From a virus, in the IMG/VR virus record IMGVR_UViG_3300001920_000017, positions 1 through 50,539 of that record: a stretch of 50,539 nucleotides of DNA. One strand, given 5' to 3'. Every line of letters starts with the position of its first letter. Positions within the stretch are counted from its first letter, which is position 1. The notes under the pieces are model-generated. The model was not told the origin of the DNA. It saw nothing but the letters and a program-made list of their open reading frames with translations, and searched no databases. The translations under genes and the position numbers were made by a program. Of this stretch, positions 3,961 through 34,595 are shown piece after piece.

Positions 3961-5366
3961 TCCCCGCCGATGAACTGATTTGTGATTCCTTCGCCGGCGG
4001 TGGAGGCGCCTCCCTCGGCATTGAGATGGCGCTCGGCCGCTCGCCCGACATCGCCATCAACCACGACGCCGAAGCGATCGCGCTGCACGCGGCCAACCAT
4101 CCGTACACGCGGCACTACCGCGAGGATGTGTGGAAGGTCGATCCGCGCGAGGCAACGGGCGGCCAGCCCGTCGGGCTGATGTGGCTGTCGCCGGACTGCA
4201 AACACTTCAGCAAGGCCAAGGGCGGCAAGCCGGTGAGTCCGCGCGTGCGGGGGCTCGCCTGGGTGGCGGTGCGGTGGGCCGTGGCCGTGCGTCCGCGCAT
4301 CATCGTCCTCGAGAACGTGGAAGAGTTTCAGACGTGGGGGCCGCTCGGCGTCGATGATCGCCCGTGCCCGCGTCGCCGGGGCCTCACGTTCAAGCGATTC
4401 ACCGGCCGCCTGCGCAATCTCGGCTACGACGTGCAGTGGCGCGAGCTGCGTGCCTGCGACTACGGCGCGCCCACGATCCGCAAGCGCCTGTTCTTGATCG
4501 CGCGCTGTGACGGCCAGCCGATTGTGTGGCCGAAGCCGACGCACGCGAAGGGCGGTCGCGCCGGCCTGCTGCCGTGGCGTACCGCCGCCGAGTGCATCGA
4601 CTGGTCGATCCCCTGCCCGTCGATCTTCGAGCGGACGCGCCCGCTGGCCGTGGCCACGCAGCGGCGCATTGCGGCCGGACTGCGGCGCTACGTGTTGGAG
4701 TCGCCGCGTCCGTTCATCGTCCAGGTGCAGAATGCCAGCAGCGGTGACACGCCGCTGTCGATTGATGCGCCGATGCGGACAGTGACCGCGCATCCGAAGG
4801 GCGGCGGGTTCGCGCTGGTGGCCGCGTTCCTCGCCAAGCACCAGAGCGAACGCAATCCGGGCGACGTGAATGCGGCGTCGCTGTTCGATCCCGTGCCCAC
4901 GGTGAAAAGCCGCGACAGCAACGCGCTGGTGACGGCCCACATCGTGAAGATGCGCGGTGACAACGTCGGCCACAGTGCCGGTGAACCGCTGCACACGGTG
5001 AGCGCCGGCGGCACGCACTTCGCTGAGGTCCGCGCCTTCCTCACGGCTTACTACGGCAACGAGAAGGACGGCGGCGACCTGTTCGACCCGATGCGCACCG
5101 TGACGAGCAAGGAGCGGTTCGGCCTCGTCACCGTCGAGGGGCACGACTACGCCATCCGCGACATCGGCATGCGCATGCTGGCGCCGCGCGAGCTGTACCG
5201 CGCGCAGGGTTTCCCCGATTCGTACCGCATCGACGTGCTGTTCAACGGCAAGCCGATGACCAAGACCGCGCAGGTGAGGATGTGCGGAAACAGCGTGGTC
5301 CCCGCCGTCGCTGCCGCGATCGTCGCCGCCAACGTCGGCACCCTTACCCAGGAGCGTGCCGCATGA
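3957..5366 (+). CDS. C5-cytosine DNA methyltransferase
   Basis: 469 residues, within the usual size for the Dcm family. Motif I (F-A-G-G-G-G, residues 12-17) binds AdoMet. Motif IV is S-P-D-C (78-81) with catalytic Cys81, a form common in phage enzymes in place of P-C. Motif VI is E-N-V (119-121), motif VIII is R-K-R-L-F-L-I-A near 175-182, and motif X is G-N-S-V-V-P near the C-terminus. Between them the target-recognition region has repeated P-x-x-T-V segments. No restriction enzyme is adjacent, so it is probably an orphan enzyme that protects phage DNA from host restriction. The target site cannot be read from the sequence. GGAGGAA at 3944-3950 sets the start. Confidence 0.95.
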   Translation: MIPADELICDSFAGGGGASLGIEMALGRSPDIAINHDAEAIALHAANHPYTRHYREDVWKVDPREATGGQPVGLMWLSPDCKHFSKAKGGKPVSPRVRGLAWVAVRWAVAVRPRIIVLENVEEFQTWGPLGVDDRPCPRRRGLTFKRFTGRLRNLGYDVQWRELRACDYGAPTIRKRLFLIARCDGQPIVWPKPTHAKGGRAGLLPWRTAAECIDWSIPCPSIFERTRPLAVATQRRIAAGLRRYVLESPRPFIVQVQNASSGDTPLSIDAPMRTVTAHPKGGGFALVAAFLAKHQSERNPGDVNAASLFDPVPTVKSRDSNALVTAHIVKMRGDNVGHSAGEPLHTVSAGGTHFAEVRAFLTAYYGNEKDGGDLFDPMRTVTSKERFGLVTVEGHDYAIRDIGMRMLAPRELYRAQGFPDSYRIDVLFNGKPMTKTAQVRMCGNSVVPAVAAAIVAANVGTLTQERAA

Positions 5367-14544: not shown

Positions 14545-15971
14545 TGTGGGCGGCGCTGCTTTTGATGCTGATGCTGACCCGCGCTGAACTCGCCGCGCGG
14601 ATTCTGGCGTTGCCAGCCAGCGAGCGCGCCACAGCGTTCGCGCACCTGCAGCGCGTGGCCCCGGCACGTGCCGTGGGCGCGGCGGGCACGGTGCTGCTCC
14701 GGTCGCTCCCGGTGGCGCGCACGATCCCCGCGTGGGCCGAACCGCTCCGAGGCGCGACGCGCTACAAGGGCGCCAAGGGAGGCCGTGGGTCCGGTAAGTC
14801 GCATTTCTTCGCGGAAGAGTTGGTCGAGCGCGCGGTCGCGAACCCCGATTACCGCGCGGTCTGCGTCCGCGAGATTCAGCGCTCGCTCGAGTTCTCGGCG
14901 AAAGCGCTGATTGAAAAGAAGATTCGGACGCTCGGGGTCAGCTCGCAATTCGAGATCACGGCCCGCATGATCCGCCGCCGCGGCGGGTCGGGGCTCATCA
15001 TCTTCGAAGGCCTGCAGGACCACACGGCCGATACGCTCAAGTCACTCGAAGGCTTCGACCTCGCGTGGGTCGAAGAAGCGCAGAGCTTGTCCGAGGGGTC
15101 GATCGACGCGCTACTGCCGACGATCCGCGCGCCGGGATCCGAGGTGTGGTTCTCGTGGAACCCGAAGCGCAAGACCGACCCGGTCGACGCGATGTTCGAC
15201 GCGGCCGAGGACCCGTCGATGGTGTGCGTGCACACCACGTATCTCGACAACCCGTTCTGCACGGACGAGCTACGCGCCGAGGCCGAGCGCCTCAAGGCGA
15301 GCGACCCGGACAAGTACAATCACGTGTGGCTCGGTGGCTACGACACGGGCGGCAAAGGGCGCGTGTACAGCCGGTTCATGGCGCGCCCGTTCCCCGAGGG
15401 CAACATCGATCCGAGTGTGCGCGACCTCGGCGGCACGATCTACATCGGCCAGGACTTCAACGTGAACCCGATGGCCTCGGTGTTCGCGTGTAAGGTGGCG
15501 GACGAGTGCCACATCTTCGACGCGTGGGCCGTCGAGACGTCGAACACCACCGAAGTGTGTGAAGCGGTGAAAGCGCAGTTCCCCGGGCGCGACATCGTCT
15601 TCTGCCCCGACCCCGCCGGCAACCAGCGCCGCAGTAGCACGACGCGCGTCGGGCAAACGGACTTCACGATCATTCGCAGCTTCGGGTTTCGCCTGCACGC
15701 GCCGCCCAAGCACCCGGCGGTGGTGGATCGCGAGAACAACGCGAACCAGATGTACGAGCACAACGGGCGCCGCCGCGTGCGCATCAGCCCCAAGGCGTCG
15801 GTGCTCATCGAGGCGCTCAACGGCCTCAAGTACAAGCCCGGCACCAACCTCCGCGACAAGTCGTCGTACCACGATCACGTGTGCGACGCCGCCGACTACC
15901 TCCTGTGGCAGGAGTTCAACGTGCTGCAACAGAACCGTGCGACCGTGACCACCTTCGCTGTGAGCGGCTGA
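14544..15971 (+). CDS. terL: Large terminase subunit
   Basis: 475 residues. The ATPase half has Walker A G-G-R-G-S-G-K-S (79-86), Walker B F-D-L-A-W-V-E-E (171-178) and a coupling motif S-W-N-P (204-207). The RNase H-like nuclease half starts near residue 298 with I-G-Q-D-F-N-V-N-P and carries further acids in F-C-P-D-P and H-D-H-V-C-D-A. This is a complete motor that cuts and pumps DNA into the prohead through the portal. A later ATG (14565 or 14571) would remove the hydrophobic L-L-L-M-L-M start, but the TGATG overlap favours 14544. Confidence 0.95.
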   Translation: MWAALLLMLMLTRAELAARILALPASERATAFAHLQRVAPARAVGAAGTVLLRSLPVARTIPAWAEPLRGATRYKGAKGGRGSGKSHFFAEELVERAVANPDYRAVCVREIQRSLEFSAKALIEKKIRTLGVSSQFEITARMIRRRGGSGLIIFEGLQDHTADTLKSLEGFDLAWVEEAQSLSEGSIDALLPTIRAPGSEVWFSWNPKRKTDPVDAMFDAAEDPSMVCVHTTYLDNPFCTDELRAEAERLKASDPDKYNHVWLGGYDTGGKGRVYSRFMARPFPEGNIDPSVRDLGGTIYIGQDFNVNPMASVFACKVADECHIFDAWAVETSNTTEVCEAVKAQFPGRDIVFCPDPAGNQRRSSTTRVGQTDFTIIRSFGFRLHAPPKHPAVVDRENNANQMYEHNGRRRVRISPKASVLIEALNGLKYKPGTNLRDKSSYHDHVCDAADYLLWQEFNVLQQNRATVTTFAVSG

Positions 15972-17590
15972 TGGCTGACGCGACCCCTGTCCGTACCATT
16001 GCGGCCGACGCGCCGTCCGGCGCCCGCCCCAGTTTCGAGCGCCCGGAGTACGTGGCCGGCAAGCCCGCGCGCCGCCTGTCGCGCGCGATGATGGAGGGTA
16101 CGCGCGGCATCCGCGCGCTGGGCGAAGAGGCCATGCCCAAGTGGCCGGGTGAAGACGCCGGGTTCTACAAGATCCGCGCGAGCATCGTGCGCGTGGCGCG
16201 TTACTACAAGCGCACCGTGCAAGCGATTGTTGGCATGGTGGTCGGGACGCCGCCCACCCTGGCGGAGGGCACCGCGCCGATCCTCATCGAGGACGCCGAG
16301 GACATCGACGGCCAGGGCACGCACTTCGAAGTGTTTGCGCGTCGGACCACCTTGGAAGCGGCGGTGGGCGGATACTCGGCGATCCTCGTGGATGCGCCGC
16401 CGGTGCCATTGGGGATGGTGCTCACGCTCGCGGATGAGCAGGCGCTGGGGCTCCGGCCGTACTGGGCGTTGATCCGCGCGGAACAGATCATCAACTGGGT
16501 CGTGGAAGCGCCCGACTGGCTCGCACTCCTCACCGCGTGGCAACAGCGCGCGTTGACAACGGACCAAGTGCGACGGCTCGCCCGGCACATGGTCACCCGG
16601 CAAGTCACGATTCACGAACCCGCCGATGTGCGCGACGGCGACTTCGGCGTGCGCACGGTGAACCGGTACCGGGTGCTGACCCTCGACACGAACGGCGTGC
16701 GGTTCGCGATTTGGGAGCAGCGGCAGGCGCAAGGCGCGACGGGCGAGCACTACGCGCTGATCGCCGAGGGGCCGATGCTGGGCGGCAAGCGTCAACCGCT
16801 GCCGGCCATCCCGCTGTCCATTGCCTACTCCCAAGAGCCGCAGGCGCCGTTTGTCTGCGAGCCGCTCGCCCAGCCGGTCGCCGAGCTCAACCTCGACCAT
16901 TACCAGCTCTCGGCTGAACGGCGCTACCTGCTGCGCATCACGCACGCGCCGACGCTCGGCCTGTTCGGCTTCGAGGACGACCTCGACGAGCAGGGCAACC
17001 CGAAGCCGATCGCCGTGGGCCCCAACGCGGTGCTCAAGTCGCGCAACCCGGACGCGGATGCCAAATGGATTTCGGCCGAGGCCGGGGCGCTGTCCGAGAG
17101 CCGCGAGGAACGCGACGACGTGGTGGAGCAGATCGCCGCGATTGGCGCGTCGTTCCTTGGCCGTGATGAGCAGCGCGGCGCAGAGACCGCGCGCGGCCGG
17201 GCGCTCGACATGGCGGCCGAACACCAGATGCACGCGCTGTTGGGGCGCGGCGTCCAGGATGCGCTTGAGCAGGCGTGGGTGTTCCACGCGCACCATCGCA
17301 ACGTGGACCCGCCGAGCATCGAGATGCACACCGTCCAGGTGGCGCCCGAGGTCAATCCGCAGGTCGCGCAGCTCCTGTGGCAGGCGGTCATCGAAGAGCG
17401 GCTCGACATGGACCAGTGGCTCGCCTATCTGCGCACGGGGGTCGTCCCGCAGACCTTCGAGCGGGACGCGGCCGAGATCCTCGCCGCCGCGGAAGCGGCA
17501 CGTGCTGCCGAGGCGGAACGCAAGCGGCAGCAGGGCGGCACGGAGCCCCCCGACGACGATCCGGCCCGCGCACTCGATCAGGCCGCGTAG
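15971..17590 (+). CDS. Portal protein, DUF4055-like
   Basis: 539 residues, close to the usual length. The order of motifs fits DUF4055 portals: an early helical segment with Y-K-I-R-A-S, then R-Y-W-A-L-I-R-A-E-Q-I-I-N-W, then P-A-I-P-L-S, then L-N-L-D-H-Y-Q-L-S-A-E-R-R-Y, and a long C-terminal helical tail. It forms the dodecameric ring at one capsid vertex. It directly follows the large terminase gene (one-base overlap) and precedes the small genes that lead to the MuF head protein, the standard order. A charged Gln/Pro tail closes the protein. Confidence 0.87.
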   Translation: MADATPVRTIAADAPSGARPSFERPEYVAGKPARRLSRAMMEGTRGIRALGEEAMPKWPGEDAGFYKIRASIVRVARYYKRTVQAIVGMVVGTPPTLAEGTAPILIEDAEDIDGQGTHFEVFARRTTLEAAVGGYSAILVDAPPVPLGMVLTLADEQALGLRPYWALIRAEQIINWVVEAPDWLALLTAWQQRALTTDQVRRLARHMVTRQVTIHEPADVRDGDFGVRTVNRYRVLTLDTNGVRFAIWEQRQAQGATGEHYALIAEGPMLGGKRQPLPAIPLSIAYSQEPQAPFVCEPLAQPVAELNLDHYQLSAERRYLLRITHAPTLGLFGFEDDLDEQGNPKPIAVGPNAVLKSRNPDADAKWISAEAGALSESREERDDVVEQIAAIGASFLGRDEQRGAETARGRALDMAAEHQMHALLGRGVQDALEQAWVFHAHHRNVDPPSIEMHTVQVAPEVNPQVAQLLWQAVIEERLDMDQWLAYLRTGVVPQTFERDAAEILAAAEAARAAEAERKRQQGGTEPPDDDPARALDQAA

Positions 17591-17613
17591 CCACCCATCC
17601 ACGAGGAGCCCAC

Positions 17614-18152: not shown

Positions 18153-18407
18153 GTGAACCGCCGCCAGCACGACTACGCGCTGCTGCGCTATCGAGATGGC
18201 CCGTCGATCACGTTCGCGTCGTCGGAGCGCGAGCGATTGGAGACGGCCGTCCGCGACGGCGCCCGCTGGTTTGAGGGCCTCGACGAATACGGCGGCAGCG
18301 TGCTCTGCTCTCTGGAGGGCGCCCGGGCCGTGCATCATTTCACGCCGGCATGTCTTGAGGCCTCCCGTGAAGAGGAGAAGGCCGAGCGCCTCGAGGGCAC
18401 ACTGTGA
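18153..18407 (+). CDS. Small hypothetical protein
   Basis: 84 residues from GTG 18153. It is a mixed beta and helix protein (Y-A-L-L-R-Y-R-D-G-P-S-I, then A-R-W-F-E-G-L). It ends in a charged Glu/Arg helix that overlaps the head-protein start by four bases. The family is unknown. Translational coupling to the head gene is likely from the overlap. Confidence 0.55.
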   Translation: MNRRQHDYALLRYRDGPSITFASSERERLETAVRDGARWFEGLDEYGGSVLCSLEGARAVHHFTPACLEASREEEKAERLEGTL

Positions 18408-20395
18408 GCCCCGCCGAACGCGCACAACGCCGCCTGCAGGCCTTGGCCGATGCGCTGGAGCCCCGGCTCCGTGACCGCTTCTTGCGCATGGCGCGTGTGC
18501 TCCCGCCCGACGAAATCGCGGACCTCGTGCGCCTGCTGGAAGCGGGCGACCTCGACGGCGCCGTGTCGCTGGTGTTCGATCGCTCGCAAGCGACGCAGGC
18601 GCTGACGACGATTCGCGCGGAGTTCGCCCGCGGCGTGGCCGAGGTGACGCAGCGCATTCAGCGTGACCTCACGCTCGTGGGCATTCGCGTGATCGTGCCG
18701 ATCTCGTCTCCCGCCCTGATCGAGCGCGTGCGCACGTGGGAGGACACCGCGTTCCGGCGGGTCAACGAAGAACTGCGCGCCGGATTGCGCGAGACGATCG
18801 CTACCGAGCTGCAGCGCGGCATCGGGCCGCGGCAGGTAGCCGTGGCGCTCAAAGGCCCGATCAGCCCGGTGGGGCTCACGGCGTACGACGTCCGCATCGT
18901 GCAGAGCTTTCGCGCGGCGCTCGAGGAAGGCCGGTACCGCGATGCGCTGCAGCGCGCGCTCCGAGATCGCCGCTCCGATCGCTCGCTCTTCGCGCGCCTC
19001 ACGAGCGGCAAGCCGCTGACGCCCCAGCAGATCGACCAGATGACGGCGGCATATCAGCGCAAGCTGGTGGCCTTCCGCGCCGAGACGTTCGCGCGCACCG
19101 CCGCAATCCAGGCGGCGAACGATGCGGCCCAGGCGTCATGGCTCGAAGCGGTAGCGCAGGGGCAAGTGCCCGAGGAGGAGGTGCGCCGGTACTGGATCGT
19201 GAGTGAGGATGAGCAGCTCTGTGCAACCTGCGCACCGATTCCGGGGCTCAACCCCGACGGTGTCGGGTTGCGTCAGCCGTTCATCACGCCGCTCGGGCCG
19301 CGCATGGGCCCGACGATGCACCCCAATTGCGTGCTAGGCGACACGCCGATCACCGCCAGTCCGGCTATTCATGCGGTGACGCAGCGGTTCTACGAGGGCC
19401 CCGTCGTGGTCATCGAGACGGCCGGAGGCAAGCGTCTCCGCTGCACCCCAAACCACCCGGTACTCACGCGGGGCGGTTGGGTTGCGGCGGGCGCGCTCGA
19501 CGTAGGTGATGATGTAGTCCGCTACCTCGGCCGTGATCGGGTGCCGCTTGTCGATCACGATCATCAGGACGTGGAACCCCATATTGAGCAGATAGCGCAG
19601 GCGGCGAGGCGAGCGGGCTGCATGCTTGCCGAAGAAGTGCCACTGTCCGCCGAAGATTTCCACGGCGACGGGATGGGCTCCGAAGTCGCAGTTGTATGGA
19701 CCAACCGCGATCTGCGGGATCACGTGGAACCCACGCTCTTGCAGAAGGCGCCACAGCACAACCTCGTGCTCGCTCATGCCGGTGCGGTCGGCTTGTCGAG
19801 TGAGAGCACGCCGGATCTTCTCGGTCATGCCGGGCGTCCTGCCCTTGGCGGCGGCGTGCGCCTTGGCGAGTTGCAGCCGCCGAGCCTCGGGGTCTGTCTT
19901 GCGACTCCACTTGATGCGCTCGGACTCGGAGCTGTCTCGCACTTTCAGACCGAGCTTCTGCAGGCGTCGAATGATCGCGGGTCTAGATACACCGAAGTGA
20001 GCGGCCATCGCGAGCACCGAGTCCCCCCGCTCGTATCGGCGCCGGATCTCGTCAACGTCGATGGGCAGCATAAGGACACGGCTCGTTTCTTCGATGCGCC
20101 CGCGAATCGGGATACCGCGGCGGCGCAGGAAGTTTCGGACAGTCTGGGAGACTACGCCGTGCTCGCTGGCGAGCTGCTTCAGGGGCGCGCCGGCGAGGTA
20201 GCGCTGGATAAGATCGTCCGCATTGAGCGGGTCGAAGCGTGTTGCCATGTCTTCAACCTCGAAACTGAAGAGGGGTGGTACGCTGCTGATGGAATCATAA
20301 CACACAATTGCCGCTGCACCGTGTGGATGCGGAGAGAACGCGCCGGCGTCCGCCGTGCGCCTGCGCCGGGCAGCACCCGGTTTGTGTTTGCATGA
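18404..20395 (+). CDS. MuF-type phage head morphogenesis protein, interrupted by an intein
   Basis: 663-residue precursor. The N-extein (1-308) is a long helical protein ending in Q-L-C-A-T-C-A-P-I-P-G and M-H-P-N, and the C-extein (636-663) begins C-R-C-T-V-W-M. Joined, they restore the H-P-N-C-R-C-T motif of the MuF/SPP1 gp7 family, so the mature product is 336 residues. Known: these minor head proteins bind the portal and help assembly or DNA ejection. The intein (residues 309-635) must excise for this protein to be normal. The reading frame stays open through the whole insert, so a single precursor is translated. On the opposite strand the insert encodes a nuclease (separate entry). Confidence 0.9.
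   Translation: MSPAERAQRRLQALADALEPRLRDRFLRMARVLPPDEIADLVRLLEAGDLDGAVSLVFDRSQATQALTTIRAEFARGVAEVTQRIQRDLTLVGIRVIVPISSPALIERVRTWEDTAFRRVNEELRAGLRETIATELQRGIGPRQVAVALKGPISPVGLTAYDVRIVQSFRAALEEGRYRDALQRALRDRRSDRSLFARLTSGKPLTPQQIDQMTAAYQRKLVAFRAETFARTAAIQAANDAAQASWLEAVAQGQVPEEEVRRYWIVSEDEQLCATCAPIPGLNPDGVGLRQPFITPLGPRMGPTMHPNCVLGDTPITASPAIHAVTQRFYEGPVVVIETAGGKRLRCTPNHPVLTRGGWVAAGALDVGDDVVRYLGRDRVPLVDHDHQDVEPHIEQIAQAARRAGCMLAEEVPLSAEDFHGDGMGSEVAVVWTNRDLRDHVEPTLLQKAPQHNLVLAHAGAVGLSSESTPDLLGHAGRPALGGGVRLGELQPPSLGVCLATPLDALGLGAVSHFQTELLQASNDRGSRYTEVSGHREHRVPPLVSAPDLVNVDGQHKDTARFFDAPANRDTAAAQEVSDSLGDYAVLAGELLQGRAGEVALDKIVRIERVEACCHVFNLETEEGWYAADGIITHNCRCTVWMRRERAGVRRAPAPGSTRFVFA
19334..20248 (-). CDS. 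Antisense homing endonuclease nested in the intein (two HTH plus Vsr/DUF559-like nuclease)
   Basis: 304 residues. GAGG (20257-20260, minus strand) lies 8 bases before the ATG at 20248. Residues about 10-48 and 64-103 are two resolvase-type helix-turn-helix units (A-P-L-K-Q-L-A and S-V-L-A-M-A-A at first helices). A basic linker follows. Residues about 158-268 form a PD-(D/E)XK-like domain: E161, C-D188-F, V-A-V-E197-I, W203-H204, then V-L-M-I-V-I-D. This is the layout of Vsr-like and DUF559 nucleases. Its codon boundaries coincide with those of the sense intein. By hand count over residues 151-270, 96 of 120 codons end in G or C here against 83 of 120 in the sense reading. Its stop (TAG) is the complement of Leu codon CTA at intein residue 3. 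The ORF is also open upstream to 20404. Confidence 0.83.
   Translation of the reverse strand: MATRFDPLNADDLIQRYLAGAPLKQLASEHGVVSQTVRNFLRRRGIPIRGRIEETSRVLMLPIDVDEIRRRYERGDSVLAMAAHFGVSRPAIIRRLQKLGLKVRDSSESERIKWSRKTDPEARRLQLAKAHAAAKGRTPGMTEKIRRALTRQADRTGMSEHEVVLWRLLQERGFHVIPQIAVGPYNCDFGAHPVAVEIFGGQWHFFGKHAARSPRRLRYLLNMGFHVLMIVIDKRHPITAEVADYIITYVERARRNPTAPREYRVVWGAAETLASGRLDDHDGALVEPLRHRMNSRTGGDRRVA
20257..20299 (-). promoter_or_regulatory. Possible minus-strand promoter and ribosome site for the nested endonuclease
   Basis: Minus strand: TATGAT at 20294-20299 is a good -10 element, in an unusually AT-rich patch that encodes the intein end G-I-I-T-H-N with rare ATA and ACA codons. GAGG at 20257-20260 is well placed for ATG 20248. 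No convincing -35 hexamer was found, so the promoter call is weak, while the ribosome site is better supported. If real, the intein carries its own expression signal. Confidence 0.35.
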
Positions 20396-20826: not shown

Positions 20827-21552
20827 ATGCTCAAGACGTATGACACGAAGGACGCGGTACCCGAGTCGTTGCGCGACGCGGCCGTGGAAACGAAGGACGG
20901 CAAGTGGGCGGCCTGGGATGTCTCCGGCCTCAAGCAGAACGCCGACAGCTTGCTCAACGAGAAGAAGCAGGTGCAGCAGAAGTACGAGGACTTGTCGAAA
21001 GCGCTCGGTGGGCTGAGCCCAGAGCAGATCGCCAAGTATCGCGAAGAGATGGCGCGCGCCGAAGACGAGCACGCGCGGAAGGCCGGCGACTTCGACAAGC
21101 TCCTCGAGAAGCGCGTAGGCGAGACTAAGGCGGAATACGAAAAGCGCATCGCCGAGCTCGAGCCGTACCGCAAGAAGTATTTCGATCGCGAAGAAGAAAT
21201 CGCGATCCGGTCGGCCGCCGCAAAGGCGGGCGTGCCGGCCGAGGATCTCGATCACGTGGTGCTGCTCACCCAGGGCCGCCGCGTGCGGTATGACGAGAAG
21301 AGCGGCAAAACGGTCGTGCTCGACCGCGACGGCGACGTCACGGGGCTCACGGTGGAGAAATTCTTCGCTGAGACCTTCAAGGCCGAAGCGCCGAAGTTCT
21401 ACGGACCGCAGGGCGGTTCGGGTGGGGGCGCGGGCGGCAGCACGGGGGGCAAGGGCAGCGCGAATGGCGCGCCCACCGTGACGGACGACCGGAGTTTCTT
21501 GGCCAACGTCGACAAGATCGCCAGTGGCGAAGTGAAGGTCGCCGTCAGCTGA
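20827..21552 (+). CDS. Phage scaffolding protein
   Basis: 241 residues, acidic and highly helical. Residues about 35-130 are a continuous charged coiled coil (N-E-K-K-Q-V-Q-Q-K-Y, then L-L-E-K-R-V-G-E-T-K). A small globular part follows at about 135-195, then a Gly/Ser-rich linker and a short C-terminal helix. Placed directly before the coat gene, this matches tailed-phage scaffolds, which co-assemble with coat protein inside the prohead and leave before packaging. A GAGGGG run precedes the ATG. Confidence 0.8.
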   Translation: MLKTYDTKDAVPESLRDAAVETKDGKWAAWDVSGLKQNADSLLNEKKQVQQKYEDLSKALGGLSPEQIAKYREEMARAEDEHARKAGDFDKLLEKRVGETKAEYEKRIAELEPYRKKYFDREEEIAIRSAAAKAGVPAEDLDHVVLLTQGRRVRYDEKSGKTVVLDRDGDVTGLTVEKFFAETFKAEAPKFYGPQGGSGGGAGGSTGGKGSANGAPTVTDDRSFLANVDKIASGEVKVAVS

Positions 21553-21732: not shown

Positions 21733-22887
21733 ATGGCCAACGTCCTGACCGATGTCATTCCGGTTCTGCTGGCTCAGGGCCTGCAGATCCTGCGCGGCGC
21801 CACCGTGATGCCGCGCCTCGTCAACACCGATTTCGCCAACATGCCGGCGCAGAAGGGGGACACGGTCAACGTGTGGATCCCCTCGGCGGCCACCGTGGCC
21901 GACGTGGCACCCTCGGCCGCACCGTACCAGGCCCCCGACTCGTCGGGCGTCAAGGTGCCGATCCAGCTCAATCGCTGGCGCCACTCCGGCTTCTTCCTGA
22001 CGGACAAGGAGCAGGAAGAGATCGCGGCGGGCTACAAGTCCCGCAAAGCCGAGGAATCGGTGAAGGTGCTGGCGAACGACGTCAACGCCTTCTTGCTGGC
22101 GCAGTACAAGCAGATCTACGGGTACGTCGGGACGGCGGGCACCACGCCGTTTGCGTCCGACGTCACCGCCGCCACGGCCGCACGCGCGGCGCTCAGTCGC
22201 CAGCTCGCGCCCCTAACGGACCGCCGGTTCGTGATGGACGTGAACGCCGAGGCCAACGCGCTCGGCTTGGCGCAGTTCACGTCTGCCGAGAAGGTCGGCA
22301 GCAACACGGCGATCATCGACGGTACGCTCGGCCGTCGTCTCGGCTTCGACTTTGCGATGGACCAGCAGGTCCCCACGCACACGTCGACGGCGCTCAGCGC
22401 CGGTAACGCCACAGTCAATGGCGCGCAGGCTGCTGGTGTTGGCTCGACCGACGGCGGGCGGACGGGCACGGTGTCGATCGCGAAGGCGACGAACGCCGGC
22501 ACGCTCGTGGAAGGCGACATCATCACGTTCGCGGGTGATGCGCAGACCTACACCGTGCTGGCCAACACCACGCTGATCGTGGGCAACACGTCCGTGCCGA
22601 TCGCGCCGGCCCTACAGTCGGCGAAGTCGGGCGGCGAGCTCATGTCGCTCAAGGCCTCGCATGTCGTCAACCTCGCGATCCACCGCGACTGCATCGCGTT
22701 CGCCTCGCGCCCGCTGCAGGCCGCGAAGGACAACACGGTCGAGATGATGTCCGTGGCCGATCCGATCTCCGGCATCGCGCTGCGTCTCGAAGTCACGCGC
22801 CAGAACAAGCAGTGGCTGTGGGACTTCGACATCCTCTACGGCGGCAAGTGCGTGCGCCCCGAGCTCGGCGTGCGCGTCGCGGGCTGA
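21733..22887 (+). CDS. Major capsid protein, P22 coat-like
   Basis: 384 residues. The N-terminal segment (M-A-N-V-L-T-D-V-I-P), then a charged helical E-loop region with D-K-E-Q-E-E-I, then the beta-rich insertion around residue 260 with G-D-I-I-T-F-A-G followed by T-Y-T-V-L matches the P22-like coat plan, including its I-domain motif. It builds the icosahedral shell. The upstream scaffold and downstream connector genes agree. An 11-bp hairpin closes the transcript. A siphovirus with a P22-type coat is a known mosaic combination. Confidence 0.82.
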   Translation: MANVLTDVIPVLLAQGLQILRGATVMPRLVNTDFANMPAQKGDTVNVWIPSAATVADVAPSAAPYQAPDSSGVKVPIQLNRWRHSGFFLTDKEQEEIAAGYKSRKAEESVKVLANDVNAFLLAQYKQIYGYVGTAGTTPFASDVTAATAARAALSRQLAPLTDRRFVMDVNAEANALGLAQFTSAEKVGSNTAIIDGTLGRRLGFDFAMDQQVPTHTSTALSAGNATVNGAQAAGVGSTDGGRTGTVSIAKATNAGTLVEGDIITFAGDAQTYTVLANTTLIVGNTSVPIAPALQSAKSGGELMSLKASHVVNLAIHRDCIAFASRPLQAAKDNTVEMMSVADPISGIALRLEVTRQNKQWLWDFDILYGGKCVRPELGVRVAG

Positions 22888-26835: not shown

Positions 26836-29800
26836 ATGGCCCGCGTCGCAACGCTCGGCACCGCGATTGATTCGGGCGGCGCCAAGAAAGGCGCCGACGA
26901 AACGCGCGCGGCCCTCGACAGCATCACCCAGGCGGCGGTCAAGACCACCGCCGCCGTGCAGCAGAGCGGACGCGTCGCGACGCAGTCGCTCACCGAAGAG
27001 GTGCGCGCGGTCACGCGGCTCGAGGCGGAGCGCAACCGCGCGGCCAATGAAGCGCGCCGGCGTGCCCAAGCGGAAGCCGCCGACGCCGCGCGCCGCGCTG
27101 CCATTCGGCAGCAGGAGATCGACGCCGCCGAGCGGGCACGCCGCGCGCAGGATGCGCACACGCAGGCCATGGGGCGCGCCGAAGCCGCGGCCTACGAGCT
27201 CGACGCCGCGTTCAACAAGAAGGCGGCGGGCGCGCTCGCCTCCGAGGCCGGCATGAACCGGCTGCGTTCGAGTGCGACCGCACTGCTCCCCGCCCTCACC
27301 GGCATCAACGGCGCCGCCGGGACCGCGATCTCGACGCTGGGCAACCTGGCGGCCGGCAGCGGCGTCACGCTTGCGATCGTGGCCGGTGTTGGCGCCATCT
27401 CGGCGGTCTACACCGCGCTGACGGCCGATGCGAAGCGGCTGCGCGAAGAGAACCAGAAGGCCGTGGCGTCACTGCGCGAGTTGGCCGGTTCGGGTCGCGC
27501 CACGTCGCTCAACGAGGCGATCCGCAAGGCCCGGCAGGAAGAACTCGCGCTCACGCGGCAGCTCACGGAGGCCGAGGCCGCGCTGCGCCGTGCGCAGTCG
27601 GGCCAAGGGTACGCCGGGGCCAAGACCGGGCTCGTGGATCCGTCGTTCGCGGCCGAAGCGACGCGGCTGCAGAAGCAGATCGCGGACACGCAGCGCGCGA
27701 TCGCGGACGGCCGCCGTGAACTGGGGCGCGTGCTCACGGACACGGCGCAAGACTACTCGCGCGCCCAGACGCAGGCGCTCGCCGACCTCGTGCGCTCGGG
27801 CAACGCGACGGTAGCGGAGCAAACCAAGCTGCGCGATCGGCTGCGCAACCTGCAGGGACAGCTCACCCAGGCCACCGCCGCGGGCGAGGACCCGGCGAAG
27901 CGCGCCGAGCTCGTGGCGCAAATCAAGACGATCACCGACGTCTACGACGAACAGGCCGAAGCCGCGAAGCGTGCCGCCGATGCGCGGGTCAAGTCGGGCC
28001 GCGAGCTGATCACGTTTGAGCAGGCCTATGCCGCCTCGCTCAACGATGTCACGCGCAAGCTCGCAGACTACGACGCCGCGCAGAACGAAGCGCTGACCAA
28101 GGCGACGACGGCCATTGGCCTGACAATCGACGCGCGCGCGCTCGACATCCAGACCCTGCGTGACCAGATCGCCGTGGTGCGCAGCAACGCCGATGCGTAC
28201 AACGCCCTCACCATCGCGCGCGAGCAAGAGCGCGCGGTGGCCGACGCCCGGGCGAAAATGCCGAAGGGCGCGGAGCTCTCAGCAGAGACCGAAACGCGCA
28301 TCCGCGCGCAGGTGAAGGAGTACCTCGAGCTCAAGAAGGTGCTGGACGCGCTCCGCTCGTGGGACGGATCCAGCCCCTTCACGCTGCCAGAAGACACGGT
28401 CAAGAACACCCGCGCGTGGGAGTCGGCGCTGCGCGATGTGGTGGGCACGCTGCGCGACCTGGGCGGCGCACTCAATGGGACGGGCTCCGACGCGGTGAAG
28501 ATGCTCGGCGCCGTGATGGCGTCCGTCGAGGGGCTCATGCGCGCCCGCGAACGCGCCGCGCAGATGCAGGCCGATGGCCAGCGCCTCACCACCGGGCAGC
28601 AGTGGGCCGCGGCGGGTGCGGGGGCCATTGGGGCATTCGGCGGGGGCTATGCGATTGGCTCCACCACCACGAGTCGGGCCACCGGGTTCCTCGGTGGCGC
28701 CGCAGCCGGCGCGGCCACCGGTGCCGCGGCCCTCGCCCCCACTGGCATCGGCGCGCCCATCGGCGCACTGATCGGTGGCATCATTGGCGGCATTGGCGGT
28801 TTGCTCGGCGCCTCCGACAAGGGCAAGCAGGCCGCCGTGCAGATGGAGATTGCGCAAAAGCAGCTCGGCAAGGCGCTCGATGGGATCAAGGCCACCTTCG
28901 CGAACGACAGCCTTGGCGCCGCGATCGCGCAAGCCCGCGCGCAGTTCGATGATCTCCGCAAGTCGACGGAAGCCGCCTACTCCGGGCGCAAGAACGAAGC
29001 CGAACGCAAGCAGATCCTCGCGGAGCTCACCGTGCTCGAGGCGCGGCGCGTGGAGCAGCTCAAGGCCCAGTATGCCGTGGAGCTGCAGCTCGCGACGAAT
29101 GACCTCGAGGTGCGGCGGTTGCGGGCGGTGGGCCTGACGGCAGAAGCCGATGCGCTGGAGCGCGTGAACACCGCGCAGCGCGAGCTGACGAACGCGATTC
29201 AGCAGTATGGCGAAGACTCGACGTATGTCGAGAAGCTGAAAGAGACCCAGGCCGCGCAAGCCGCCGCGGCGGAGTCCGCGCGGTTGTTGGCCGAAGCCGA
29301 GCGCCAGGTTGCGCTTGCCCGGCGCCGCGAAGACATCGGCGCGGACCTCACCGCCCGCGGGCAGACGCTGACCGGCGACACGCGCGGCGCCTTCATCACG
29401 CGCCAGAACGCCGGCGCGGTGGTGGCCCTGCGCGAAGCCGAAGACCTTTTCAAGGCGGGCGCGATCACCGCCGAGATGTTTGCGGAACTCACCCGCATCA
29501 TCAACGAAGAGCTGTTGTCGGCCATTCGCGATTTCGACCAAGCCGCAGCCGACGCGGCCGAGCGCCGCCGGGCGGAAGCCGAAGCGGCCGAACAGCAGCG
29601 CGTCGCGCGGATCCAGCAGGACCAGACGGCCATCATTCGGGAGATGACCGACGCGTACCGCGTGCTCAACCCGCAGCTCGCGGCGGAGCTCGCCGCGCAG
29701 CAGGTGCAGATCGATCGCGCGGCACGCCTGGCGGCGGCCACGGATGATGTCACGCGGGCGCAGCTGGAGCAGTTGTTCAGCCTCCAGGATCAGGTGACGG

Positions 29801-30474
29801 CGTACGAGGCCAGCGCACGAGCCGCCGAGTCGGCCGCGCGTGCCGTCGAAGCACAGACCCGCGCTGCGGAGCGCCTCGCGCAGATTGGCCAGGATGTGGA
29901 CGAGCGGTTCCTCCGCGCGACCGGCCAGACGTTCGAGGCCGACCGGCGCGGGCTCGAGCGCGAGCGGGATTCGCGGATCGCCGAAGTCATGGCGGCCTTC
30001 GCGGCCCTCGGGATGCCAACCGGCGGCAACCCGATGCAGCAGGCGCAGGCGATCGCCGCGCAGCAAGCGCAGATGCAGGACCTGATTGCGAAGATTCAGC
30101 AGACGTTCGATGCGGACCTCGCGCGGCTGATCGCATCCACGATGACGGGCACGCCGGCGTCCACGGCGGCAGGCGCCACGGATCCGACGCGCGGCGCGGC
30201 GTGGAACCCGGGCCGCATGGCGGACATCCCCGTGTTGGGCGGCGACAGCGTGACCTATCGGTCCGCCGCCTCGATGACGGAGACCAGCGCCACGCGCCTG
30301 ATCGACTTCGCGTCGGCGCAGCTCAGCGTGCAGCGCGACATCCTCGCCGAGTTGCGTGGGCGGCGCGGTGGGGCGTCGGACCTGTTGGGCCCGGCGGTGA
30401 TTGATCGGATTGACACGGCGCTGGGTACGCGCATGGTCGACAGCGCCATGCTGGTGAACGGGCAGCTGCTGTGA
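26836..30474 (+). CDS. Tape measure protein
   Basis: 1212 residues, mostly helical. The first 150 residues are alanine/arginine-rich coiled coil. A hydrophobic glycine-zipper region (G-G-x-x-G-A-A-x-G patterns, about residues 590-670) matches the membrane-active part of tape measures. Long helical repeats with A-E-A-x-x-A-E-R fill the rest. At the usual rule of about 0.15 nm of tail per residue this predicts a tail near 180 nm. It directly follows the G/GT pair, as expected. It has no peptidase domain that I can see. Confidence 0.9.
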   Translation: MARVATLGTAIDSGGAKKGADETRAALDSITQAAVKTTAAVQQSGRVATQSLTEEVRAVTRLEAERNRAANEARRRAQAEAADAARRAAIRQQEIDAAERARRAQDAHTQAMGRAEAAAYELDAAFNKKAAGALASEAGMNRLRSSATALLPALTGINGAAGTAISTLGNLAAGSGVTLAIVAGVGAISAVYTALTADAKRLREENQKAVASLRELAGSGRATSLNEAIRKARQEELALTRQLTEAEAALRRAQSGQGYAGAKTGLVDPSFAAEATRLQKQIADTQRAIADGRRELGRVLTDTAQDYSRAQTQALADLVRSGNATVAEQTKLRDRLRNLQGQLTQATAAGEDPAKRAELVAQIKTITDVYDEQAEAAKRAADARVKSGRELITFEQAYAASLNDVTRKLADYDAAQNEALTKATTAIGLTIDARALDIQTLRDQIAVVRSNADAYNALTIAREQERAVADARAKMPKGAELSAETETRIRAQVKEYLELKKVLDALRSWDGSSPFTLPEDTVKNTRAWESALRDVVGTLRDLGGALNGTGSDAVKMLGAVMASVEGLMRARERAAQMQADGQRLTTGQQWAAAGAGAIGAFGGGYAIGSTTTSRATGFLGGAAAGAATGAAALAPTGIGAPIGALIGGIIGGIGGLLGASDKGKQAAVQMEIAQKQLGKALDGIKATFANDSLGAAIAQARAQFDDLRKSTEAAYSGRKNEAERKQILAELTVLEARRVEQLKAQYAVELQLATNDLEVRRLRAVGLTAEADALERVNTAQRELTNAIQQYGEDSTYVEKLKETQAAQAAAAESARLLAEAERQVALARRREDIGADLTARGQTLTGDTRGAFITRQNAGAVVALREAEDLFKAGAITAEMFAELTRIINEELLSAIRDFDQAAADAAERRRAEAEAAEQQRVARIQQDQTAIIREMTDAYRVLNPQLAAELAAQQVQIDRAARLAAATDDVTRAQLEQLFSLQDQVTAYEASARAAESAARAVEAQTRAAERLAQIGQDVDERFLRATGQTFEADRRGLERERDSRIAEVMAAFAALGMPTGGNPMQQAQAIAAQQAQMQDLIAKIQQTFDADLARLIASTMTGTPASTAAGATDPTRGAAWNPGRMADIPVLGGDSVTYRSAASMTETSATRLIDFASAQLSVQRDILAELRGRRGGASDLLGPAVIDRIDTALGTRMVDSAMLVNGQLL

Positions 30475-30481
30475 GGCATCC

Positions 30482-33400
30482 GTGAGCCAAGCCTCGCGCC
30501 TCCCCACGCTCTCGCTGTGGTCCGACTTCGCGTCCGCCGGTGGTCAGCGCTTGGGCGGTCTCGGCGCGCCGCTCGGCGGCAGTGCGCGCTATCGCATCGA
30601 TGGCGATACGACCGCCACGCTCGGGGTCAGCGCCGCGCGCTGGCAGCAACTGGGCGGCACACTCGGCCACGTCGTGCGCATCGACTGGCCGGAAGGCACC
30701 ATCGACGAATGGCGCGTACAGCGCGTGAGCGATGCGCGCACCTCGCCGCTGCCGCCGGTCGATGTCGTACAACTCGCGCTGGTGCCGATGTGGGCGGATC
30801 TCGCCGAACGCGGCCCCGTGTTGCCCGTGGTGGGCGGCGCGGTCACGACCCGCGTGGCGGGCGCCCTGCCCCTCACCACGTGGCTCACACAACGCGTGCT
30901 GGCACACGAAGCCGCGCAGCGGCTCGGGCTCGTGCTCGGCACCGTGGCCAGTGATCCGGTGGTGGATGCGGAGTTCGATGCGGCGGCGGCGCTCGCGATC
31001 GCGCAACAGGTGGTGGGGCAAGCCGGTGCCGAACTCACCTTCGAGCGCGTCGATGACACGCAGTGGCGCCTGCATGCGCCGGCCGCGCGCGGCGCCGAAC
31101 TCCCTGCGCTGGTGGCGCGTCCCGGCGTCAACGTATTGGCGCAGCTCGCGGGCTACGACCGCGCGCAACTCAACACCGTGGTGTTGCCGTTCGGCGATGC
31201 GGATCCCGCGACCGGCGACCGCGCGACGATGGCCGAAGTGCGCTATGTGGTGCACGGCCTGCCCGGCGATCGCTGGGTGCAGCTCCGCGACGCCGACACC
31301 GACACGTCGCCCATTCTGGTGGACACGCAGTGGGTTGGTGCGGCGGTGCAACTTGTGGACCTGTCGACGCGCGGCATCGTGGACAGTCGCGCGAGTGATG
31401 GCGCGGTGCGCCTCGACAGCGTGACGGGCCTGAGTGTGGGCAGTGTCGTGGGCCTCGCGATGGCCGACGGCGCGCCGCTGGTGGAAGTGTTCGACAGCAC
31501 CAGCCTCGCGAGTGGTGGGCGCCGCGTGCGGCCCCTCACGCTCGCCGGGCGCGGCGAAGCCAACCGCATTGCCAATGGCCGGTTTGCTGACGCGCTCACC
31601 GGCTGGACGACGCCCAATGCGCCGACGCCGGCGGCGTATGCCGAAGTCCAGCGCAGTGAACTCGGGGTCACGCGCACGTTCCGCGCGAATGGCGCCCGCT
31701 CGGCCGGCACTGCGGCGTCGACGCCGTTCACCGTGGATGGCCTCGGCGCCGGTGAGCGCATCGTGCGCGGCGACGTCATCACGCATGTGGGCGGCGAGCT
31801 CGGCTTAAGCGGCGCGTGCATCCCGAACGCGAGCGGCGTGCTGACCGTACCGCTCGACGATCCGCTGCCGAGCGACTTCGCGGACGGCGATGTGTTACCC
31901 CTCGTGCGGCGCGAGGGCGGCAGCTACACGCTGGCGGCGCTGCCCAAACTCGGTGGGATCCTGCTCTGCACCGGCGCGAGTGCCGACGCCGTGCAGCGCC
32001 TCACGGCGTTCGGGCGGGTCGATGGGCCGCCGTTCCTGAGCACGCCGGGCGATGTCTTCGTCACGGGCCCCGGCAGTGAAGTGTTCGACGGCAACCTGAA
32101 CGCGCTGTATCCGGTGCCCGGTGCGTCGACGCAGGCGGCGTTTCGCTATGGCGGGTTCAGCGGCGGCAGCGCGACCCCGTTGGGCGTGTTCACATGCAAC
32201 CTGGTCCGCGTTGTGAGCGCGCAGCGCCTCCGGTTCTACCAGAGCACCACCCCGTCGGGCGCACTGGGCACGCACCTGATGGCCGATCTCAACCAGTTCA
32301 ACGGCGTGCTGCTGCCGGAGTACTGCCGCAACAACCCGGGCACCACGAACACCGCGTGGCGCTTTCTCGGGGAGATCGACAGCACCGGCTACGATCCCGA
32401 CGTCAATCTCAACTACGTCGAAGCCGATTGGGTCGGCGTGCCCGCGTGGGCGGATCTCACGGGCCTCGTGGCCGGAATCGTCAACTACGGCAGCGGCCCG
32501 CAGGTCATCACCACGAGCGACCTGTGGTCGGGCAGCGCCACCCTCGACTGGCGCCGCGAAACGCGATCGCTCGTGTTGGACGGCGCGCACCCCACCGGCA
32601 GTACCACGCTCACCACGAAGCCGATTCCCGCCCTCGCGCGCCGCGATTGGCTCGGCACCGATAATCTGTATCTGCCGACGCTGGGCCTCACGCTCGCGCT
32701 CACCGGCACCGCGTCGTGGGCCAGCACGGGCCTCGCCACCGTGCCCGTCAGTGTGCCGAGCGGCGTCACCATTCCCGCCGGCACGCGGTGTTACAGCAAT
32801 TGGTCGGGCACCAGCGACGCGGACGGCTACCTCGTGGTGGCGACCGAGGTCGTGGGTCCCGCGTCCAGTGTGAGTGTGCGCGGCGGCGATGCGTACGCCA
32901 ACACGTGGGATGGCCTCAGCACCGCGCCGACGGCGCTCTATCGCGTGGACCCGCTGTCCATCGTGCGCATCCTCGGCAACACGCTGCGCGCGGCCGCGAC
33001 GGCGACCGCCGATGGCAGCGGCGCCGCGAGCATCACGCTCGAAGGCCCGAACGTCAACACCATCACGGACAACGCGACGCTGGTGCTCTCGCGCCCCGTG
33101 ATGCTGCGCCCCACCGATCCACAAGACGGCAGCGTGGTGCGCTGTGTGACGCCCGTGACCGCGCCCACCGCCGATGCGCCGGCGCTGGCGTCCAGTCTCG
33201 CGCGCATCCCCGTGCCCGCCGGCGGCACGCGGCCGGTGACCGTGTTCGTGACGTTCAGTCTGTCGGCCGGCACCTATCAGGCGAGCGACCTGCCCTGGGT
33301 GGTCCTGATCGACGACGCGGGCTCCATCCGCGCGAGTGCGCGCCTCGCCGATACTGCCGTGCAGGTGCTCACCACGCCAACGCTCGCCCGCGTCATCCTC

Positions 33401-33817
33401 ACCACGACGATCACGAGCACGCAGTGGCTCGGGGCGCGCATCATCGGCGGTCCCGCGTCGCCCACCGCGTGGATTGTCGTCACCGATGCGATGCTCTGCA
33501 CCACGGCGCGCGATGATGTGCCGTTCACCGCGTCGTCGTGGGGCAACCCACTGGCGCAGCGCGCGGCCGAAGCCCTCAGCCTGCAGCGCTTCCCCACGGC
33601 CGACATCCAGGTGTCGCTGGCCACGCTGCGGCGCTGGTTCGATGCGCCGTCCACGACGCCCGCCGTGCAGCTCGGGCAGCGGCTCGAGTTCCCCGCGCTC
33701 GGCGTCACGCGCCGCGTCGTGGAGATCGATCGCCCCTTCACGCAACCCGACCGCGCTACGATCACTGTCGGCGTACCCCCAACCGCCCTCTCGCGCCGCG
33801 CCGGGAGTCTGAGGTGA
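30482..33817 (+). CDS. Large tail tip protein (probable baseplate hub and adhesin)
   Basis: 1111 residues from GTG 30482. The first 260 residues have a hub-like alpha/beta plan (V-R-I-D-W-P-E-G-T-I-D-E-W, then R-P-G-V-N-V-L-A-Q-L-A-G-Y-D). The long remainder is beta-rich with many Thr, Ser and Gly, likely several beta-sandwich or carbohydrate-binding modules. The last 100 residues (I-Q-V-S-L-A-T-L-R-R-W-F) close with a strand-helix that may plug into the tail tube. A tail-tip or hub role is inferred from order. Exact homology is not recognised. Confidence 0.6.
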   Translation: MSQASRLPTLSLWSDFASAGGQRLGGLGAPLGGSARYRIDGDTTATLGVSAARWQQLGGTLGHVVRIDWPEGTIDEWRVQRVSDARTSPLPPVDVVQLALVPMWADLAERGPVLPVVGGAVTTRVAGALPLTTWLTQRVLAHEAAQRLGLVLGTVASDPVVDAEFDAAAALAIAQQVVGQAGAELTFERVDDTQWRLHAPAARGAELPALVARPGVNVLAQLAGYDRAQLNTVVLPFGDADPATGDRATMAEVRYVVHGLPGDRWVQLRDADTDTSPILVDTQWVGAAVQLVDLSTRGIVDSRASDGAVRLDSVTGLSVGSVVGLAMADGAPLVEVFDSTSLASGGRRVRPLTLAGRGEANRIANGRFADALTGWTTPNAPTPAAYAEVQRSELGVTRTFRANGARSAGTAASTPFTVDGLGAGERIVRGDVITHVGGELGLSGACIPNASGVLTVPLDDPLPSDFADGDVLPLVRREGGSYTLAALPKLGGILLCTGASADAVQRLTAFGRVDGPPFLSTPGDVFVTGPGSEVFDGNLNALYPVPGASTQAAFRYGGFSGGSATPLGVFTCNLVRVVSAQRLRFYQSTTPSGALGTHLMADLNQFNGVLLPEYCRNNPGTTNTAWRFLGEIDSTGYDPDVNLNYVEADWVGVPAWADLTGLVAGIVNYGSGPQVITTSDLWSGSATLDWRRETRSLVLDGAHPTGSTTLTTKPIPALARRDWLGTDNLYLPTLGLTLALTGTASWASTGLATVPVSVPSGVTIPAGTRCYSNWSGTSDADGYLVVATEVVGPASSVSVRGGDAYANTWDGLSTAPTALYRVDPLSIVRILGNTLRAAATATADGSGAASITLEGPNVNTITDNATLVLSRPVMLRPTDPQDGSVVRCVTPVTAPTADAPALASSLARIPVPAGGTRPVTVFVTFSLSAGTYQASDLPWVVLIDDAGSIRASARLADTAVQVLTTPTLARVILTTTITSTQWLGARIIGGPASPTAWIVVTDAMLCTTARDDVPFTASSWGNPLAQRAAEALSLQRFPTADIQVSLATLRRWFDAPSTTPAVQLGQRLEFPALGVTRRVVEIDRPFTQPDRATITVGVPPTALSRRAGSLR

Positions 33818-33820
33818 CCT

Positions 33821-34591
33821 GTGTCTCTCTGGATTGACGAACGACCGGTGTCGGCGCTCGGTGCCCGACTGGCGCGTATCGAGGGGTTCCTCGGCGGCCC
33901 GATCATCAGTCGGCAACTGACTGGTGTACCGGGCCTCACGCGTCCGTTGATTGGCGGGCTCCGCGCGCCGGATCCTCGCACCGCGGTGCTCGAGCTGAGC
34001 GTCCCCCTCAACGCCCTCACCGATCGTCCGACCGCCATCCGCGCGCTCGAGCTCGCGCTCACCGGCGAGCGCTGGGTGCGCACCATCGATCGGCCAGGCC
34101 TCCGCACGCGCTGTCACGTCACGATGGCGGCGCGCGAGATCCCGCAGGCGCGCGGACTCACCATCGCACGCGTGCTCGTCACGCTCACCTGCACCGCGCT
34201 CGACGGCAGCTCGGAGCACTGGCCGGCGCGCTCGCCGGTGTTGCTCAGCACGACGCCGGCGGCCGTGCCCACGGGCTCGCTGCCCACCACGGGCTGGTTG
34301 CTCGCGTGGGGCTTCAGTTCGCCGCTCACGATCACGTACCGCACGGCGCGCGGTGACGCCACGACGCTCACGATCACGCAGACGCTCGCCACCGGCGAAC
34401 ACGTGGCCATCGATCTGCTCACGGCCGATGTGTGGCACGTCGCGACGACGGGCGTCCGTACCCGCGTCGCGCTCGTCACCGGCACGATGCCCGCGTGTGA
34501 TGGCCGCCACGCGCTCGGCAGTCTCGCGCCGACGCTCGCGCTGTCGAGTGGTACCGGCCTGCTGCTGCCCACGCTCCACGACCGGATATAG
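33821..34591 (+). CDS. Distal tail-like protein
   Basis: 256 residues from GTG 33821, preceded by GAGG. The first half (R-A-L-E-L-A-L-T-G-E-R-W, then R-L-R-T-R-C-H-V, then V-T-L-T-C-T) resembles the belt-and-beta-sandwich plan of distal tail (Dit) proteins. The C-terminal half is a second beta-rich domain. Position next to the hub fits. Residue identity alone would not prove it. Confidence 0.5.
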   Translation: MSLWIDERPVSALGARLARIEGFLGGPIISRQLTGVPGLTRPLIGGLRAPDPRTAVLELSVPLNALTDRPTAIRALELALTGERWVRTIDRPGLRTRCHVTMAAREIPQARGLTIARVLVTLTCTALDGSSEHWPARSPVLLSTTPAAVPTGSLPTTGWLLAWGFSSPLTITYRTARGDATTLTITQTLATGEHVAIDLLTADVWHVATTGVRTRVALVTGTMPACDGRHALGSLAPTLALSSGTGLLLPTLHDRI

Positions 34592-34595
34592 CACG

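Follow-up and report, generated by a model that had tools for sequence, protein, structure and literature searches.

A contiguous phage intein whose bases also encode, on the other strand, a putative homing endonuclease

It is well established that canonical inteins carry their endonuclease in frame (PMC6801210). The intein family described here has much in common with canonical bifunctional inteins of the LAGLIDADG and HNH types, namely the Hint blocks, a conserved host site, presumed homing, empty alleles and eroded copies. However, whereas canonical inteins have the endonuclease in the splicing frame, in our family it has a gene of its own on the other strand, and the sense middle is an apparently unstructured image of it. 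The EDxHD (Vsr-like) homing endonucleases are another related system, since I-Bth0305I (PDB 3r3p) is the best solved match of the nuclease domain in both sequence and fold. I-Bth0305I was deposited as a mobile intron protein, and for related EDxHD enzymes a position between the halves of split inteins is reported as well (Dassa et al. 2009); the proteins of our family instead have two HTH units and are encoded antisense in inteins. Out-of-frame endonucleases are known as well. ShiLan-type hidden HNH insertions, which sit in phage methylases, likewise have the endonuclease in another frame of an insertion that is open in the phage host frame, but this frame is on the same strand, the enzyme is HNH and a self-splicing domain was not found (PMC11855218). 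By comparison, our element uses the opposite strand, an EDxHD-like enzyme and a complete intein. Finally, homing endonuclease genes (HEGs) of nuclear group I introns may lie antisense to both the host gene and the splicing element, with evidence of their own expression (PMC9548176). There, however, splicing is carried out by RNA, with the HEG inserted in one of its peripheral segments, whereas here two proteins are encoded by the same bases. Actinobacteriophage inteins of 'non-canonical architecture' (bioRxiv 10.1101/2025.01.02.630785), cited for overlapping frames, might include similar cases, possibly some of the Gordonia ones. In the literature that we searched (few subscription papers and no bioRxiv preprints), we found antisense HEGs in introns only, out-of-frame HNH enzymes on the same strand only, and no antisense nuclease within a contiguous intein. 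The original prediction, that known inteins carry the endonuclease in frame and that no antisense nested case is known to have been described, held within this literature, and we found no prior description of the two-strand arrangement there.

The sequence analysed is a virus record of 50,539 bases, referred to in its entirety as the window. The intein interrupts a MuF-like head morphogenesis gene (18404..20395, + strand) encoding a 663 aa precursor. On one side of it is the portal gene (15881-17590), on the other are the scaffold (20827-21552) and capsid (21733-22887) genes. The host gene matches PHROG 3517 (head morphogenesis) with E=2e-44; the match to PF04233 is weak in the window (E=0.004), while relatives exceed the cut-off. 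Across the family, host proteins include MuF proteins, portal-MuF fusions and minor capsid protein 2. In several phage records intein-bearing MuF genes are labelled NAD+--asparagine ADP-ribosyltransferase, a name that we consider doubtful. Elsewhere in the window, two large phage proteins of 1212 and 1111 aa (26836-30474 and 30482-33817, +) have no PHROG match at 1e-4. A DNA methyltransferase gene (3957-5366) suspected of containing a large insertion looked like ordinary variable sequence, in which no intein blocks or nuclease could be recognized by eye.

The intein itself (19328..20308, +) spans 981 bases or 327 aa, from C1 to N327, within the context MHPN/CRC. It reads CVLGD...TPNHPVLT...HVFNLETEEGW...GIITHN and is followed by CRC. 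It is contiguous and of the class-1 type, with C1, T40xxH43 in block B and the H326-N327/C junction, including the C+1 residue. Pfam family PF14890 matches the sense product (E=3e-10), and C1, G24, T40, H43 and N327 are invariant in 60 inteins. The N-terminal splicing blocks A and B (C1..GD.., T40-P-N-H43; 19328..19531, +) are modelled by AlphaFold2 with pLDDT of about 88-98, and the C-terminal blocks F and G (HVFNLETEEGW..GIITHN; 20195..20308, +) are supported by sequence, conservation and the model. In this model a Hint fold is assembled from the two ends, with residues 1-70 and 290-327 at pLDDT of about 90-98. In contrast, the middle of the intein (residues about 130-263; 19715..20116, +), which faces the HTH units and the start of the nuclease domain on the other strand, is predicted to be disordered (pLDDT <50 for residues 163-263) and shows antisense-type evolution. 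No nuclease match was found for the sense middle in Pfam, and the endonuclease domain is not in the splicing frame. A split intein with two half genes is not what we see, as ORF 18404-20395 is uninterrupted. The in-frame placement at the conserved host site HPN/CRC together with known intein-less alleles meets the criterion for an intein. Thus, the original prediction of an intein at these exact coordinates, with complete splicing blocks and no sense endonuclease, held in full. The sense motif DFHGDG was considered as an intein feature and rejected, because it is the reverse image of the nuclease motif AVAVE and its evolution follows the antisense strand; it is nevertheless kept in eroded inteins, so that a minor sense role is possible.

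On the opposite strand, the same bases contain a second ORF of 304 aa (19334..20248, −), with an ATG at 20248 and a TAG stop at 19334-19336. An alternative upstream start at 20404 would give 356 aa, but the conserved start is the one at 20248. Sense and antisense codons are exactly superposed, sense position 1 lying opposite antisense position 3. The encoded protein consists of a first HTH unit (residues 7-43; 20120..20230, −), matched by Pfam HTH_58 and HTH_28, a second, resolvase-like HTH unit (residues 65-98; 19955..20056, −), matched by HTH_7 in relatives, and a nuclease domain (residues 160-277; 19418..19771, −), whose residues E162, Y185, D188 and E197 are invariant in 60 antisense proteins. 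For the window protein the Pfam E-values are 1e-5 for HTH_58 and HTH_28, 1e-4 for the MTES_1575 REase family and 6e-4 for DUF559. The nuclease scores stay below the curated cut-offs (20.2 vs 20.6 bits for DUF559, 22.4 vs 38.2 bits for MTES_1575). Among relatives, the best E-values reach 7e-14 (resolvase HTH_7) and 1e-10 (MTES_1575), the latter family being matched in 16 out of 60. An AlphaFold2 model based on 60 relatives (mean pLDDT 89.2) shows two HTH units, helices and an alpha-beta nuclease domain. The top Foldseek match is the catalytic domain of I-Bth0305I (probability 1.00, E=1.8e-3), which was recovered by sequence profile too, and the next relevant fold match for the nuclease domain is 3hrl; the profile E-values are 1e-3 and 4e-4. 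Although the acidic residues of the EDxHD pattern align, ExxGxxH as in DUF559 is the better fit, and the alignment with 3r3p is partial. Hence, the enzyme, as predicted by the model, is probably best termed an EDxHD/DUF559-like nuclease with I-Bth0305I as its nearest solved relative, and its cleavage activity is inferred. The original prediction of a 304-codon antisense ORF with two HTH units and a Vsr/DUF559-like nuclease held, with the nuclease type refined in this way.

The arrangement is not peculiar to the window. A tblastn search of annotated phages with the antisense protein produced matches in 116 records (28-35% identity, E down to 3e-25), and those listed fall opposite genes annotated as head morphogenesis, minor capsid, MuF or hypothetical. 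Scans of viral contigs yielded 76 loci and those of bacterial genomes 4. After removal of duplicates, there were 71 inteins, the window included, with both sets of splicing blocks and the antisense nuclease. The phase is identical in all 71 (70 besides the window). A further 49 inteins were detected by a search with the splicing blocks only, and the arrangement also occurs in phages of Gordonia, Salmonella, Escherichia, Cronobacter, Pantoea, Pseudomonas, Vibrio, Aggregatibacter, Helicobacter, Klebsiella and Mycobacterium, and in a plasmid of Chloroflexota. About 130 distinct relatives have it, codon on codon in every one. Insertion is mostly at HPN/CRC, with other sites used in loci L088 and L102 and by the first intein of L007. 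In the latter (L007:2872-5730, −) a single MuF gene has two such inteins at two sites, with an antisense nuclease in each.

Conservation read backward may be misleading. The antisense tail EYRVVWG faces the sense block B TPNHPILT, and we set it aside as nuclease homology since it is a mirror of this block. For this reason, the searches were repeated with the nuclease core lacking the tail and with the splicing blocks alone, and the outcome did not change. With the splicing-block query, the antisense nuclease core was present in 73 of 75 intein matches, in a single phase; both exceptions are readings of one locus, L136, with a 172-residue intein and no nuclease. Distances between splicing blocks and between nucleases are correlated (r=0.60, not reached in any of 500 permutations). 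There are several short inteins of the same lineage (172-195 aa; L136, L111, L114, L151 and L092) in which the antisense nuclease is lost or truncated; in some of them the antisense −10 and start motifs remain visible. It is also worth pointing out that in Escherichia phage Snoke (L191, MK931441) and in KMB36 (L102, OR525703) the intein is annotated in the head gene and the antisense gene is not. In the genomes that we looked at, the antisense gene is unannotated except for two free-standing copies.

The extein and the splicing blocks evolve as sense coding sequence, and the middle evolves as antisense coding sequence. This was shown by substitution analysis of 34 close pairs, many of them from one phage group, with unrelated groups in agreement. 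By sense codon position (first/second/third), differences are distributed 22/16/62% in the exteins and 20/15/65% in the C-terminal block, which is the sense third-position pattern. In the middle the distribution is 58/14/28%, the antisense third-position pattern, and the N-terminal block is intermediate (39/15/46%). Single-base codon changes in the middle are 1220 synonymous and 489 non-synonymous for the antisense protein, as against 342 synonymous and 1367 non-synonymous for the sense protein. The switch between strands is graded along the element, with antisense constraint extending from about sense residue 53 to 252. Divergent pairs give the same picture: the BLOSUM score of the nuclease core is 2.33 on the antisense strand vs 0.46 expected from sense constraint alone, while in the C block the relation is reversed (sense, 2.75 vs 0.54). 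The mere openness of the antisense frame is weaker evidence. Conditional on the sense residues and on the codon usage of the extein, it is not significant in the GC-rich window alone (P about 0.08), but it is significant in several AT-richer relatives (1e-5 to 2e-10). Very long antisense ORFs with no Pfam match also occur elsewhere in the window, including those at 31895-34720, 28279-30507 and 15896-17602 (−); GC-rich codon usage is the probable cause. A Pfam search of eight antisense ORFs of the window other than the nuclease gene (445-941 aa) returned no match.

Three outcomes would have refuted the reading based on sequence alone: no profile match of the antisense ORF to nucleases, loss of this ORF in relatives that keep the intein, and selection confined to the sense strand. 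All three were examined and none did so. The profile search found MTES_1575 and DUF559, with I-Bth0305I as the top structural match. Loss of the ORF is not general, being limited to a few short inteins in which it is lost or truncated, as the homing cycle expects. Sense-only selection was not seen, since substitution patterns point to antisense selection in the middle and sense selection at the ends.

All four putative expression signals of the antisense gene are present in the window on the − strand: an extended −10 box TGTTATGAT (20294..20302), complementary to the block G codons ATC ATA ACA (Ile-Ile-Thr); a Shine-Dalgarno sequence GAGGTT (20255..20260), complementary to AAC CTC (Asn-Leu) of block F; the ATG start (20246-20248), complementary to the block F His codon CAT; and the TAG stop (19334..19336), complementary to the intein Leu3 codon CTA. 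That the rare codon ATA is used although the gene is GC-rich agrees with selection acting on the other strand. Across the family, the complement of block F (His-Val-Tyr-Asn-Leu-Glu) provides ATG and the Shine-Dalgarno sequence, that of block G (Gly-Ile-Ile-Thr-His-Asn) the extended −10 element TGTTATAAT, and that of Leu2 or Leu3 the stop. We compared observed codon choices with those expected from codon usage of the extein, i.e. the flanking host gene, in a first set of inteins and in a second set comprising the 49 further ones, and all four signals are shown to be enriched in both. The ATG start codon occurs in 31 of 36 cases vs 17.6 expected (second set, 32 of 41 vs 16.2), the Shine-Dalgarno Leu codon in 44 of 63 vs 22.7 (43 of 44 vs 17.2), the first base of the −10 box in 55 of 66 vs 14.1 (34 of 48 vs 6.1) and the stop at Leu2 in 47 of 51 vs 11.6 (23 of 27 vs 3.0). 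The codon for the terminal Asn, used as a control, shows no enrichment (30 vs 31.1 and 14 vs 16.1). TATAAT is found at one fixed place in 33 of 132 inteins. The combination of TGn and TAnnnT, likewise fixed in position, is seen in 43 of the 132 (4.6 expected). Some caution is needed here. The sequences are related, so p-values overstate independence, and for an element that moves horizontally the codon usage of the extein is perhaps the wrong standard of comparison, even though the neutral controls are unbiased. In addition, about half of the first set lacks the start codon in block F and presumably initiates a few codons later, and a scan of the window found neither a −35 box nor a consensus sigma-70 promoter pair. 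The signal-codon bias supports independent expression of the two strands, as an inference from sequence. The original prediction that splicing and mobility are separated by strand and independently regulated is thereby supported through codon choices for promoter, ribosome binding site, start and stop, in the absence of RNA or protein data.

Intein-less alleles are shown to exist very close to occupied ones. Gordonia phages Ailee, ChadMasterC and Shivanishola have an intein-less MuF that matches the Fosterous protein at 100% identity across 380 residues, and others have an intein of a different size at the Fosterous site. Jersey-like phages are a mix too, many being intein-less. The nuclease also occurs outside inteins, in two free-standing copies, one in L064 and one in Acinetobacter phage P1068 (L064:3866-4831 and L194:1815-2708, both +). 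Both are convergent with the 3' end of an intein-less MuF gene, overlapping it by 7-10 bases. The L064 copy has an additional N-terminal Cys-rich stretch. In the tree, this copy is nested in intein-borne clades (support 0.88-0.96) and the P1068 copy weakly so, with rooting uncertain. Because the L064 copy lies among intein-borne ones, it looks like an escape from the element; the idea that free-standing copies are ancestral to the element is, with the same reservation about rooting, unsupported.

Taken as a whole, the data are very likely explained by a contiguous MuF intein whose homing endonuclease gene lies wholly on the opposite strand. According to this model, the head transcript would be translated into a precursor in which the N- and C-terminal blocks form the Hint domain, while the antisense-derived middle would stay a floppy loop. 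The intein would then splice out at HPN/CRC, leaving a working head protein. From a promoter of its own in the complement of block G, and a ribosome binding site and start in the complement of block F, the two-HTH EDxHD/DUF559-type nuclease would be produced. This nuclease probably recognizes and cuts intein-less MuF alleles of co-infecting phages, and repair off the intein-bearing copy would spread both functions. What the sequences show directly are the paired ORFs and their conservation, the strand under selection in each part, the biased signal codons and the empty alleles of near-identical phages. In the absence of RNA, protein, splicing or cleavage data, splicing itself, expression of the antisense gene (transcription as well as translation), cleavage of intein-less sites and homing are all inferred. 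A bolder reading, which we consider likely, is that phage inteins include an extensive, ancient class in which the two functions are divided between the strands in one fixed codon-on-codon phase, with the splicing blocks doubling as promoter, ribosome binding site, start and stop of the nuclease, and with the ends constrained both ways.

Several alternatives deserve consideration. The antisense ORF could be a by-product of GC-rich codons, or of an intein read backward, without any protein being made. Long antisense ORFs are indeed common in the window, the openness of this one is not significant there, and backward reading does create apparent conservation, as EYRVVWG illustrates. However, this explanation is refuted by the substitution pattern and is all but excluded: the middle has the antisense third-position signature and is conserved beyond what sense constraint alone would give, AT-rich members keep the frame open, Pfam and fold matches point to nucleases, homologues exist free-standing with no intein opposite, and the eight other antisense ORFs match nothing in Pfam. 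Alternatively, the gene might be expressed with a main job other than homing, such as excluding or damaging rival phages, as some free-standing phage endonucleases do. In favour of this, free-standing copies lie at the 3' end of MuF genes without an intein and might target the MuF alleles of rivals. Yet the nuclease co-varies with the splicing blocks, precise insertion at a conserved site alongside near-identical empty alleles is the pattern of homing, and homing and rival exclusion are compatible in any case. We regard this possibility as very unlikely.

Two further objections concern the window copy and the source of the transcript. The enzyme or the intein of the window might be inactive while the family as a whole is functional; eroded relatives (L136, L111/L114, L151, L092) exist, and the homing cycle predicts dead copies. 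This seems unlikely, as the window element is full length, neither protein lacks any of its invariant residues and the four antisense signals are all in place. It could also be argued that the nuclease comes from the sense transcript or from some unusual read-through, given that no complete promoter was detected. However, the sense transcript cannot encode it, because the head operon is read from the other strand, and enrichment of the extended −10 element points to a promoter inside the element. Such an origin is therefore very improbable, although antisense transcription might still read through from a promoter located further upstream.

An intein with its nuclease on the opposite strand, the explanation that we favour, bears on how such elements are understood. 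In textbooks, inteins exemplify a parasitic gene that is joined in frame to the device by which it escapes; in this family the two are on opposite strands of the same bases. Owing to this encoding, the nuclease can be made without the head protein and the reverse, and if the bolder reading is true, splicing and mobility would be translated from different transcripts. Homing could readily be tested in the near-identical Gordonia phages, some of which have the element and some not. Since the antisense gene is unannotated even where the intein has been recognized, as in phage Snoke, catalogues likely miss a widespread nuclease family. Finally, antisense overlaps between proteins that are this extensive and ancient, and strongly supported on each strand by comparative evidence, are rare, and the origin and limits of two-strand coding become testable through this one.
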